Below are positions 34,145 to 39,672 of a stretch of 64,000 nucleotides of DNA, in pieces. The position numbers were made by a program, and so were the translations under genes. The stretch comes from Motilibacter peucedani (lineage in GTDB: Bacteria > Actinomycetota > Actinomycetes > Motilibacterales > Motilibacteraceae): the NCBI RefSeq assembly GCF_003634695.1, contig NZ_RBWV01000009.1, positions 62,001 through 126,000 on the forward strand, read 5' to 3'. Under the pieces are notes generated by a model, which was not told where the DNA came from, searched no databases, and saw nothing but the letters and a program-made list of their open reading frames with translations. Each line of letters starts with the position of its first letter. The first letter of the stretch is position 1.

Positions 34145-34954
34145 GTGGTGCAGCCGGCCGGACGCGTACGCCGCCCCCTCGGCGCGCTCACCCGCGGCAC
34201 CACCGCGCCCAACCGACTGCGCCGCGTCGACCGCTGGACGGCCGCGTCGTACGCGTCGCTGCTGCGCGCCGCTGCCGACCCGCTCGTCGTCGACCTCGGC
34301 TACGGCGCCTCGCCCGTCACCACGCTGGAGCTGGCGCACCGGCTGCGCGCGGTACGGCCCGACGTCGAGGTGGTCGGCGTCGAGATCGACCCCTCCCGCG
34401 TCGCGGCCGCCGCACCGTACGCGTCGCCCGGCGTCTCGTTCCGCCTCGGCGGGTTCGAGCTGCCGCTCGACGGCCGCTCACCGGTGCTGGTGCGTGCGCT
34501 CAACGTGCTGCGGCAGTACCCCGAGGCCGAGGCGCTGGCGCACTGGCGCACGCTGTGCGCCCGGCTCGCGCCCGGCGGGCGGCTGGTCGAGGGCACGTGC
34601 GACGAGCTCGGCCGGCGGGCGAGCTGGGTGGCGCTCGGGCCGGAGGGGCCGCGCACGCTCACCCTGGCCGCGCGGCTCGCCGGACTCGACCGGCCCGGCA
34701 GCCTCGCCGAGCGGCTGCCGAAGGCGCTGATCCACCGCAACGTGGGCGGTGAGCCGGTCCACGACCTGCTCACCGCCTTCGACGCGGCGTGGGACGCCGC
34801 GGCACCGTACGCGGCCTACGGCGCCCGGCAGCGGTGGGCGCGGGCGGCGGCGACGCTGCACGAGCGCGGCTGGCCGGTGCTCGACCGTCCCGCGCGCTGG
34901 CGGCTGGGCGAGCTGACCGTGGCGTGGTCGGCGGTGGCGCCGCGCGAGGGCTAG
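34145..34954 (+). CDS. Class I SAM-dependent methyltransferase
   Basis: A 269-residue Rossmann-fold methyltransferase. The SAM-binding motif I is [16 protein letters not shown], motif [13 protein letters not shown], and [15 protein letters not shown] is the later strand. The target is unknown. A GTG start is assumed at 34145 (34148 also possible). It is divergent from mshA, which is where this protein is commonly found in actinobacteria. Its stop TAG shares CTAG (34951-34954) with the convergent macro-domain gene. Confidence 0.8.
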
Positions 34955-35478
34955 TCGCGGCGGGTGGCGGCGTCGAGCGCGACGCGGAACGCTTCGTACG
35001 CGTCGTGGCCGAACAGCACGAAGCGCACCTCGCGCATGACGACGGGGCTGCCGAGCACCGCGCGCACGGCGACCTCCGCCGCGGCGGCGAGCGGCCAGCC
35101 GTAGACCCCGGCGCTGATCGCCGGGAACGCGACCGTCTGGGCGCCGAGCTCGGCCGACACCCGCAGCGAGCTGGTGTAGGCGCTGCGCAGCACCGGGCTG
35201 CGGTCGATGCTGCTCGACCACACCGGTCCGACGGTGTGCACGACCCAGCGCGCCTGCAGCTGGCCGGCCGTCGTCGCGACCGCCTGGCCGGCCGGCAGCC
35301 CGTCGGGCAGCGTGGTCGCCCGCAGGTGCTGGCACTCGCGCAGGATGTCCGGCCCGCCGCGCCGGTGGATCGCGCCGTCGACCCCGCCGCCGCCGAGCAG
35401 CCCGGAGTTGGCGGCGTTGACGATGACGTCGACGCGCTGCTCGGTGATGTCGCCCCGGATCAGGCGGACCGGGCTCAC
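34951..35478 (-). CDS. Macro domain (ADP-ribose-binding) protein
   Basis: A 175-residue single macro domain. It begins VRLIRGDITEQRVDVIVNAANSGLLGGGGVDGAIHR-like (VDVIVNAANSGLLGGGGVD), the ADP-ribose-binding signature, and has the second loop FPAISAGVYGWP. Proteins of this type hydrolyse O-acetyl-ADP-ribose or remove ADP-ribose from proteins. The GTG start overlaps the DUF2516 stop (GTGA). Confidence 0.9.
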   Translation of the reverse strand: MSPVRLIRGDITEQRVDVIVNAANSGLLGGGGVDGAIHRRGGPDILRECQHLRATTLPDGLPAGQAVATTAGQLQARWVVHTVGPVWSSSIDRSPVLRSAYTSSLRVSAELGAQTVAFPAISAGVYGWPLAAAAEVAVRAVLGSPVVMREVRFVLFGHDAYEAFRVALDAATRRD

Positions 35479-35816
35479 CACGGGCCGTAGGGCCCCTGAC
35501 GGCCGCCGCCGCGCCCGCGCATCTGCTCGAGGGCCGGCTTGGCGTCGACGAGGTAGACCGCCGAGGCGACCAGCGCCGCGAGCGGCAGGAGGTTGACGGG
35601 GCTGAGCACGGGGTTGCTGAGCACCGCCTTGATCGGACAGGCGAGCAGCACGAGCAGCAGGCCGAGCCCGAGGATCAGCAGCCAGATGCGCTTGGTCAGC
35701 TTGCCCGCGGCGACGTAGGCCGCGGCGCGGTGGCGCACGGCGTCGACGACCGCGGCCACGACCAGGCCGATCTCGACCAGCCACACCAGCGCCAGCAGCC
35801 AGGAGGTGCTCAGCAC
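35475..35816 (-). CDS. DUF2516 family membrane protein
   Basis: A 113-residue membrane protein with three hydrophobic segments: LALVWLVEIGLVVAAVVDAV, IWLLILGLGLLLVLLA and LLPLAALVASAVYLVDAKP, then an Arg/Gly-rich tail ending PYGPW. It matches the actinobacterial DUF2516 family, of unknown function. It starts at GTG 35816, four bases after the rsiG stop, and overlaps the macro-domain gene, so the three are probably one operon. Confidence 0.8.
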   Translation of the reverse strand: MLSTSWLLALVWLVEIGLVVAAVVDAVRHRAAAYVAAGKLTKRIWLLILGLGLLLVLLACPIKAVLSNPVLSPVNLLPLAALVASAVYLVDAKPALEQMRGRGGGRQGPYGPW

Positions 35817-35820
35817 GCGC

Positions 35821-36435
35821 TCAGCCCCGCCCGAGCAGGTCCTCGACGTGCGCGACGCCCTCCTTGTAGCGGCGCCCGATCTCCGCCGTGCAGGCGTCGA
35901 CCACCGTCTGGACGTCGCGGCGCGAGTGCGAGACCTCGTCCTCGAAGGCGCGCAGGCGCGAGACGGCCGAGGCGATCTCGTCGTCGGAGAGCGCGCCGAG
36001 GTCGGAGAAGCCGACCTCGGCGGCCAGCTGCTCGACGCGGCGGCGGGTCTCGCCGATGCGCGAGGGGTCGACGTGCGGGAGCCGGGCGTGGCTCTGGTCG
36101 GCGCGGGGGCCGGAGTCGGCCAGGGTGCGCGCGAGGCGGGCGACGAAGTCCTCCTCGCTGCCCTCGTCGATGGGCTCGCCACCGGTCGCGCGGCGGGTCT
36201 GCTCGGCGCGCAGGATGTCGAGGCGGCCCTGCAGCAGGCGCCGCACGTAGGAGAGGTCGGACTCCTCCTGCTCGGCCTCGCGGCGCAGGGTGCGCACCTC
36301 GTCGAGGTCGCGCTCCGCGAGGTTCTCGAGGTAGCCCGAGGACAGCACGCGGTCGATGCGGCGGCGGCCCCCGTCGAGCGGGCCGGCGACCGGCGCTGAC
36401 GGGTCCGGCGACGAGGGGTCGGTGGGCTCGGTCAT
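35821..36435 (-). CDS. rsiG: c-di-GMP-binding anti-sigma factor RsiG
   Basis: A 204-residue helical protein. It contains two exact copies of the RsiG c-di-GMP signature E-x3-S-x2-R-x3-Q-x3-D: Glu58/Ser62/Arg65/Gln69/Asp73 and Glu165/Ser169/Arg172/Gln176/Asp180. In Streptomyces, RsiG loaded with c-di-GMP holds the sigma factor WhiG inactive; this is established for that genus and inferred here. The first 30 residues are disordered and Pro-rich. It begins at ATG 36435 after GAGGAG. WhiG is not encoded in the window; a diguanylate cyclase is, at 17.5 kb. It leads the operon rsiG-DUF2516-macro domain. Confidence 0.9.
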
Positions 36436-36504: not shown

Positions 36505-36945
36505 ATGGGACCCGTGCGGGCGGTGGTGCAGCGGGCGAGCAGCGCCCACGTGGTGGTCGACGGGGCCGTGGTCGGCGCGCTGCCGCGCCCCGGGCTGGTG
36601 GTGCTGGTCGGCGTCACGCACGGCGACAACGCCGGTGTCGCGGCCGCACTGGCCCGGCGGGTGCACGGCCTGCGCATCCTCGAGGGCGAGCGCAGCTGCG
36701 CCGACCTCGACGCCCCGCTGCTGGTCGTCAGCCAGTTCACCCTCTACGCCGACACCCGCAAGGGTCGGCGCCCGAGCTGGTCCGCCGCCGCGCCCGGCGC
36801 CGTCGCCGAGCCGCTGGTCGAGGCGTTCGTCGCCGAGCTGCGCGAGCGCGGAGCGCACGTCGAGACCGGGGTGTTCGGCGCCGACATGGCCCTCACCCTC
36901 ACCAACGACGGCCCCGTGACGATCCTGCTCGACAGCGCCGGCTGA
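36505..36945 (+). CDS. dtd: D-aminoacyl-tRNA deacylase
   Basis: A 146-residue proofreading enzyme that removes D-amino acids (and glycine) from mischarged tRNA. Diagnostic motifs are [13 protein letters not shown] at the N-terminus, [17 protein letters not shown], and [11 protein letters not shown] near the C-terminus with the cross-subunit Gly-Pro. Family proteins usually begin exactly at (M/V)RAVVQR, so GTG 36514 is a good alternative to ATG 36505. Divergent from rsiG. Confidence 0.92.
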
Positions 36946-38637: not shown

Positions 38638-39672
38638 TCACCGCGCGACGCGCAGCCCCTGCTGGGCGGCGCGCCCCGCACCGCCCAGCGGGCCGGCCAC
38701 GAGCAGCGGCGGCACCTCCTGCGCGGCGGACGCGTCGCCCACCGCGAGGACGGCGTCGTCGGGCACCCCGCGGCGCAGCAGCGCGAGCCCCACCGGGCCG
38801 AGGTCGGCGTGCTGCACGACGCTGCCGAGCCGGCCGACCTCGCGGCCCTCGAACGACACCTCGTCGCCCGGGCGCGGGTCGTCGCCGGCCGAGCCGTCCA
38901 GGTGCAGGATGCTGAGCCGCCGCGGGGGGCGCCCGAGGTTGTGGACCCGCGCGACGGTCTCCTGGCCGCGGTAGCAGCCCTTGTCGAGCGCGACCGCCGT
39001 CGCCAGCCAGCCCACCTCGTGGGGGATCGTGCGGTCGTCGGTGTCGAGGCCGAGGCGCGGCACGCCGGCGGCCACCCGCCGGGCTTCCGCCGCCCACATC
39101 CCCGCGGGCGGGCCCGCCGACGCCGCGAACGCGGCCAGCTCGTCGCGCGGCACCAGGACCTCGCGGCCGGGCAGCGGCGAGCCGGGGCCCGACACCCACG
39201 ACAGGTGCGCCGGGTGCGGCTCGGCCTGCGGCTGCAGCACGAGCGCCCACTGCGCGGTGACGTCCTCGACCTCGACCTCGGTCCAGAAGCGCATGCGGAG
39301 CAGGTACGCGGTGAGAGCCGCCGCCGTGCCGACCCCGCCGACGCCGGTGCCGGGGAGCAGCCAGGTGGACGTGCCGTCGTCGACGACGTGGAGGGCGTGC
39401 TCGACGCGGCCGTTCGGGTCGAGCACGAGCGTCTCGGTCGAGGCGCCGGTCGGCAGGTGGCGCAGCTCCTGGCTGGTCAGGTCGTTGAGCCAGCCGAGCC
39501 GCGCGGGGCCGGTGACGCGTACGACGCCGCTGTGCGACAGGTCGACGAACCCCTCGCCAGCCTCGAGCCGGCGCTGCTCGCCGAGGGGGTCGCCGTAGTG
39601 CCAGGCGACGCCGGCGTCCGGGCCCTCGGCGGGCACCGCGCCGGGCAGGTCGAGAAGGGGCGAGCCGGTCAC
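38638..39672 (-). CDS. Folate-binding protein YgfZ/GcvT family (Fe-S cluster maintenance)
   Basis: A 344-residue protein of the glycine-cleavage T family without methyltransferase function. The hallmark KGCYRGQETVARVHNLG is present, after VDLSHSGVVRVTGPARLGWLNDL (contains LSHSGVVRVTG). YgfZ proteins use folate to help repair or insert certain iron-sulfur clusters. The start GTG 39672 overlaps the Fur-family stop (GTGA), so the two are likely translated together. Confidence 0.9.
   Translation of the reverse strand: MTGSPLLDLPGAVPAEGPDAGVAWHYGDPLGEQRRLEAGEGFVDLSHSGVVRVTGPARLGWLNDLTSQELRHLPTGASTETLVLDPNGRVEHALHVVDDGTSTWLLPGTGVGGVGTAAALTAYLLRMRFWTEVEVEDVTAQWALVLQPQAEPHPAHLSWVSGPGSPLPGREVLVPRDELAAFAASAGPPAGMWAAEARRVAAGVPRLGLDTDDRTIPHEVGWLATAVALDKGCYRGQETVARVHNLGRPPRRLSILHLDGSAGDDPRPGDEVSFEGREVGRLGSVVQHADLGPVGLALLRRGVPDDAVLAVGDASAAQEVPPLLVAGPLGGAGRAAQQGLRVAR

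Follow-up and report, generated by a model that had tools for sequence, protein, structure and literature searches.

A twin-motif RsiG in Motilibacter peucedani, its predicted role as a c-di-GMP brake on type IV pili and motility, and a second, diverged RsiG lineage

What does a c-di-GMP-responsive anti-sigma factor control in an actinobacterium whose genome encodes both flagella and type IV pili? According to the available text of PMC8325347, no sigma/anti-sigma pair other than RsiG-WhiG is known to be a target of c-di-GMP, and the question is raised by one gene in the stretch of Motilibacter peucedani DNA analysed here (64,000 nucleotides, hereafter the window). The open reading frame, translated from the minus strand (window 36435-35821), encodes 204 residues and carries the signature E-x3-S-x2-R-x3-Q-x3-D twice, at residues 58-73 and 165-180, with all fixed positions exact, which confirms what the initial annotation had reported. 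Among 200,000 shuffles of the protein's own sequence, 154 contained at least one signature and none contained two. The features concerned are as follows.

35821..36435, minus strand: rsiG, twin-motif anti-sigma factor of 204 aa, identified from motifs, Pfam and PDB matches (G000:C9:97824-98435 without the stop codon).
36217..36264, minus strand: first signature, RsiG residues 58-73 (coordinates calculated from the ORF start).
35896..35943, minus strand: second signature, RsiG residues 165-180 (coordinates calculated from the ORF start).

The earlier naming of the protein as RsiG is supported by independent comparisons. It scores 108.9 bits against Pfam PF22802 (RsiG-like; cut-off 27), and residues 38-201 match the Streptomyces venezuelae RsiG chain 6pfj_T (labelled AmfC protein in the PDB entry) with an E-value of 2e-30, a match that covers both helices; the matches to PDB 6pfj/6pfv thus back the identification. 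The neighbouring genes, together with a cyclase gene further away in the window, are listed below.

36505..36945, plus strand: dtd, D-Tyr-tRNA deacylase (Pfam PF02580, 156.9 bits).
38638..39672, minus strand: a gene whose product we take to be YgfZ-like, found near rsiG elsewhere too.
34951..35784, minus strand: macro-domain protein on the other flank of rsiG, start uncertain (Pfam PF01661, 128.2 bits).
17451/17460-18755, plus strand: PAS-PAS-GGDEF diguanylate cyclase with an I-site-like RxxD (GGDEF 145.3 bits).

Across 21 other RsiG loci, each just 2.4-4.5 kb long, dtd lay near rsiG in nine and ygfZ in seven, with neither present in ten; both were present in all four loci of family f19 (L218-L221). 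A macro-domain gene was found beside rsiG at none of these 21 short loci. Taking together the exact motif pair, the PF22802 and 6pfj_T matches and the neighbouring genes, sequence comparison therefore confirms an ordinary twin-motif RsiG, orthologous to that of Streptomyces. Twin-motif RsiG has already been described (PMC8325347, available text), and the window gene itself is known; what is new is the predicted pilus regulon of the twin-motif RsiG-WhiG pair and the second RsiG lineage, RsiG2, described below.

The PAS-PAS-GGDEF cyclase with RxxD noted in the initial annotation is indeed present, and its REGD at residues 348-351, five residues ahead of the GGDEF at 357, is consistent with an I-site. 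The further suggestion that this enzyme supplies the signal for RsiG fared less well: only nearness speaks for it, and nearness carries little information because the genome encodes 45 GGDEF domains, that of the window cyclase among them. A special link between the two genes was rejected on this ground, and we regard the cyclase as a possible, not a special, source of c-di-GMP.

The lack of a WhiG-type sigma factor in the genome had been named at the outset as an argument against the reading; one gene (contig C10) scores above the cut-off of the WhiG equivalog NF004935 (424.8 bits versus 343), and its product matches 6pfj_A with an E-value of 4.7e-116. Residues K57, G61 and R62 of WhiG contact c-di-GMP (PMC8325347, available text), and this K-x3-G-R pattern is kept in the M. 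peucedani WhiG as KYVAGR, the form also found at 30 of the 30 best-scoring WhiG loci (L115-L144). The FliA-type sigma factor of the same genome (C9), encoded beside an ORF that we took by eye to be FlgN, reads GYLVNE instead, and K-x3-G-R was kept in none of 16 FliA-type proteins, comprising this one and 15 chosen by us from the sigma search listing. FliA was accordingly rejected as the less likely partner, and WhiG is the likely partner of RsiG. The contact residues follow the presence of RsiG imperfectly. The WhiG-like sigma factors of G176 and G255 read RYVVSR in genomes with no RsiG-family match, and these pilus sigma factors may have escaped c-di-GMP control. Against a strict link, G165 keeps KYVAGR and gave no RsiG match in two RsiG searches. 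The better WhiG in genomes that have RsiG2 alone reads RHVAGR in G016, KHVAGR in G038 and KFVAGR in G055. The RYVVSR sigma genes of G176 and G255 (L168, L169) lie near pilD.

The initial annotation had left the regulon open and had proposed a search for the WhiG promoter motif. The WhiG consensus is of the flagellar type, TAAA / GCCGATAA (PMC8325347, available text), and the search fixed the spacer at 15 bases and allowed up to two mismatches, with the reversed pattern as control. The 4.19 Mb genome contained 15 sites versus five with the reversed pattern, and the sole 1-mismatch site precedes pilA (C10), which encodes the major prepilin. Further boxes were found 34 bp before a second prepilin gene, 69 bp before fliD (inside the preceding ORF), 54 bp before cheB, 4 bp from the called start of an MCP gene and 11 bp before a secreted-protein gene; of the other nine, seven fall within ORFs and have no target of this kind, and two lie where no gene was called. 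From this promoter evidence, the predicted output is type IV pili, together with chemotaxis and flagella.

Site numbers in the relatives G001-G004 (8, 15, 14 and 6, a total of 43) are weak evidence on their own when set against the reversed-pattern controls (5, 6, 15 and 3; in G003, 14 sites versus 15). Thirty of the 43 sites were inspected, of which seven precede cheB, cheA, a flagellin gene, two MCP-type genes, a GGDEF gene and a prepilin gene (cheA, flagellin, GGDEF and one MCP-type gene scanned by Pfam, the others named by eye), 13 are inside ORFs, five precede other genes and five precede none called. The pilA box itself is weak in relatives, with at least four mismatches in G001 and three in G004, where a second prepilin-like gene has a box with two mismatches. 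No pilins in the type IV pilus stretches of G002 and G003 were matched by the prepilin pattern, and the pilin box of G002 came from the whole-genome promoter search. One 1-mismatch flagellar-type promoter in G001 (L188, G001:C1:917271-917297) has no called gene downstream.

A wider test covered pilin-like genes near pilT in chosen genomes, part of them taken nonrandomly from the top of the PilT listing; a box was scored at up to two mismatches within 250 bp, the mean of 200 permuted consensus patterns served as control, and six Nocardioides-like stretches with no pilin-like gene were left out. Where WhiG was present and FliA was scored as absent (no second sigma match above about 110 bits; some eight candidates at most were scored in each genome, and several assemblies are fragmented), boxes preceded 7 of 22 pilin-like genes versus a permuted mean of 0.165, with 0 of 200 permutations as high; this group holds 13 loci, nine with pilins, and 15 of its 22 pilin-like genes had no box. 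Genomes with both sigma factors had boxes at 2 of 14 pilin-like genes versus 0.045 (11 loci, seven with pilins, including the M. peucedani pilA that prompted the test). The corresponding values were 3 of 13 versus 0.115 in FliA-only genomes and 1 of 17 versus 0.135 in genomes with neither sigma factor, the single box of the latter group belonging to G053, whose congener G069 has WhiG; genomes with the RYVVSR sigma factor had boxes at none of two pilin-like genes. Separately, three genomes of family f17 with FliA and without WhiG (G214, G057 and G150; L286, L288 and L289) have 1-mismatch boxes before large prepilin-like genes of 564-600 codons.

Because both sigma factors recognise this one type of promoter, the boxes in the M. 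peucedani genome are not assignable to one or the other, and this shared promoter, with the boxed pilin-like genes of FliA-only genomes, favours a Streptomyces-like alternative in which RsiG-WhiG would mainly serve septation or sporulation and the pilin boxes would belong to FliA. An SsgA-like gene (G000:C10:449438-449731, L298; 109.3 bits) also occurs in this genome, alongside its flagellar and type IV pilus genes. The SsgA family is usually tied to sporulating actinomycetes, and the presence of the gene leaves room for a role in septation or sporulation. However, boxes precede 7 of 22 pilin-like genes in WhiG-bearing genomes without a listed FliA, and no sporulation gene was recognised downstream of the 15 sites (by eye, with Pfam for five). 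We therefore consider the sporulation alternative unlikely.

The same genome encodes a second, diverged RsiG. RsiG2 (C11:173658-174179, 174 aa) lies between nth and crp and scores 66 bits against PF22802 (cut-off 27); its first motif is exact and its second reads D-x3-S-x2-R-x3-H-x3-D. We separated RsiG2 from RsiG by a match of over 100 bits in the class-wide search, a criterion of our own, with lists sorted by hand. So defined, RsiG2 occurs in all five genomes of the family, with a strong match in 68 of 296 genomes of the class, across 26 family codes. Both proteins are encoded in 56 of the 296 (in two of these the match contains a stop codon), and RsiG2 alone in 12, six of which are under 90% complete (both hand counts). 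Beyond the class, one genome in the phylum sample, G334, reached a score near 99 bits. Among the open-access papers listed, none reported a second RsiG lineage beyond a remark on Acidothermus.

RsiG2 is a member of the RsiG family and fold. A tree of 22 RsiG and 79 RsiG2 sequences parts the two by one branch (SH-aLRT 99; a quick tree with a long-branch warning), and when nine sequences from beyond the class are added and RsiG2 is reduced to 42, the RsiG2 sequences still share one side (support 90) and RsiG needs two changes. An AlphaFold model built with five sequences (pLDDT 71.6) has long helices at 37-72 and 122-163, and its top four Foldseek matches are RsiG chains (best E-value 7.3e-4, probability 1.00, TM 0.47-0.50); with an rmsd near 7, the helix arrangement is matched just roughly. 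Genome G033 has five PF22802 matches, and at L172 (G033:C1) it holds an open frame of 162 residues whose first motif is degraded.

Motif conservation bears on whether RsiG2 is still a c-di-GMP receptor. Among 79 distinct sequences, the first motif keeps E in 79, S in 77, R in 78, Q/H in 77 and D in 79, and the second keeps E/D in 77, S/T in 78, R in 79, H in 73 and D in 47; both motifs hold in the relaxed form E/D-S/T-R-Q/H-D in 41. In G145, where rsiG2 adjoins a divergently oriented WhiG-like gene and PilT was not found, the first motif is degraded to E-C-R-E-D, and c-di-GMP binding by this RsiG2 is therefore doubtful. This sequence, and the absence of the final Asp of the second motif from 32 of 79, would fit a duplicate that no longer binds c-di-GMP and acts, if at all, free of the messenger. 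The nearly invariant first motif, the Arg of the second kept in 79 of 79 and the distribution of RsiG2 as a separate clade over 26 family codes argue against such a loss, which we judge very unlikely. Dependence on c-di-GMP in most lineages is the more probable expectation.

Gene context connects RsiG2 with pili. PilT was found in 66 of 68 genomes with RsiG2 versus 24 of 228 others (Fisher p 9e-43, with genomes counted as independent of relatedness). At 62 named RsiG2 loci, nth and crp are both near in 46 and one of them in three, pil genes adjoin in ten, and a WhiG-like sigma gene adjoins in three. All ten pil-linked loci are labelled as Nocardioides, with rsiG2 between pilT and pilB in eight and at a contig end in two. 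In family f13 (Nocardioides-like, inferred), a WhiG-like sigma gene lies 5.6-7.3 kb from rsiG2 in four of five genomes, at the opposite side of the pil cluster that holds rsiG2; in G070 it is on a separate contig. In Nocardioides iriomotensis (L086, 9-4205), three genes follow one another, the first encoding by eye a GGDEF-EAL protein, the second being rsiG2 and the third a WhiG-like sigma gene; together they may make up a c-di-GMP sigma module that is complete in itself. An RsiG2-sigma fusion in L074 and L086 was rejected, the two genes being in different frames. No sigma gene is linked to rsiG2 in the M. peucedani genome.

The same positions admit another function, in which RsiG2 would not be an anti-sigma factor but would bind c-di-GMP as an adaptor of the pilus machinery (of PilB or PilT, for instance), or would act on Crp. 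Its place between pilT and pilB in Nocardioides, the nearness of nth and crp at 46 of the 62 named loci and a C-terminal tail consensus unlike that of RsiG are compatible with this function. Nonetheless, RsiG2 adjoins a WhiG-like sigma gene at three named loci and in G145, the adjacent sigma factors keep K-x3-G-R, and Foldseek ranks RsiG chains first, so that we regard an adaptor or Crp role as improbable. Because some of its relatives sit in pilus clusters or beside WhiG-like sigma genes, RsiG2 most likely acts as an additional brake on a sigma factor of the WhiG type.

By analogy with the S. venezuelae complex, the two motif helices of RsiG would pack into an antiparallel coiled coil and take up a c-di-GMP dimer, and RsiG in this loaded state would clamp the single WhiG of the genome. 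A fall in c-di-GMP would release WhiG, and free WhiG together with FliA, reading the same promoter type, would then transcribe type IV prepilin genes and some chemotaxis and flagellar genes, as the boxes suggest. Through this switch c-di-GMP would hold back surface pili and motility, and not mainly spores, in line with the proposal for Rubrobacter. The analysis itself documents sequences with their motifs and homologies, gene neighbourhoods, co-occurrence and promoter counts; from these we infer c-di-GMP binding, WhiG sequestration, the pilus output and the second-brake role of RsiG2, and the explanation as a whole, with RsiG and RsiG2 as two brakes, is one that we consider probable.

More tentatively, and at somewhat below an even chance, many piliated actinobacteria may use RsiG and its asymmetric paralogue RsiG2 on WhiG-type sigma factors with type IV pili as the common output, the spore switch of Streptomyces being a pilus switch reassigned after pilus loss. 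If the twin-motif pair controls pili in motile actinobacteria, its sporulation role in Streptomyces looks derived, and the pilus role would span single-motif to twin-motif forms. If RsiG2 is a widespread second RsiG, one genome can run two c-di-GMP sigma brakes, and a single sigma factor could respond at two c-di-GMP thresholds because its two anti-sigma factors differ in their second site. RsiG2 would then also be a case in which to study the divergence of a second-messenger receptor after duplication.

Like the S. venezuelae pair, the M. peucedani proteins combine two exact signatures, a match over residues 38-201 and a WhiG partner with K-x3-G-R. Unlike S. venezuelae, M. peucedani adds flagellar and chemotaxis genes, type IV pili and RsiG2, and the predicted targets are pilins and chemotaxis genes. 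In family f19 (Streptomyces, inferred), all 27 genomes encode RsiG and WhiG, and PilT or RsiG2 occurs in 0 of 27 (hand count). In Streptomyces, the phosphodiesterase RmdB competes with RsiG for WhiG (PMC13232838, available text); no link to an RmdB-type gene was seen at the window rsiG locus, and a parallel is offered by the GGDEF-EAL gene (by eye) next to rsiG2 and the WhiG-like sigma gene of N. iriomotensis.

A second RsiG copy was recorded in one of 134 genomes, that of Acidothermus cellulolyticus 11B, in the available text of PMC8325347, unlike the 56 of 296 class genomes with both types by our hand count. That copy possibly belongs to the RsiG2 lineage, a comparison made through related loci and not that sequence: two Acidothermaceae loci (L029 and L034) carry RsiG2 with nth and crp near. 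In Rubrobacter radiotolerans (PDB 7lq2-7lq4; PMC8325347, available text), RsiG has one motif and acts as a homodimer in an (RsiG)2-(c-di-GMP)2-WhiG complex, unlike RsiG and RsiG2 of M. peucedani with two motif helices each. The likeness lies in the circuit, an RsiG-WhiG switch and flagellar-type promoters, which in Rubrobacter precede pilus genes and genes for c-di-GMP enzymes.
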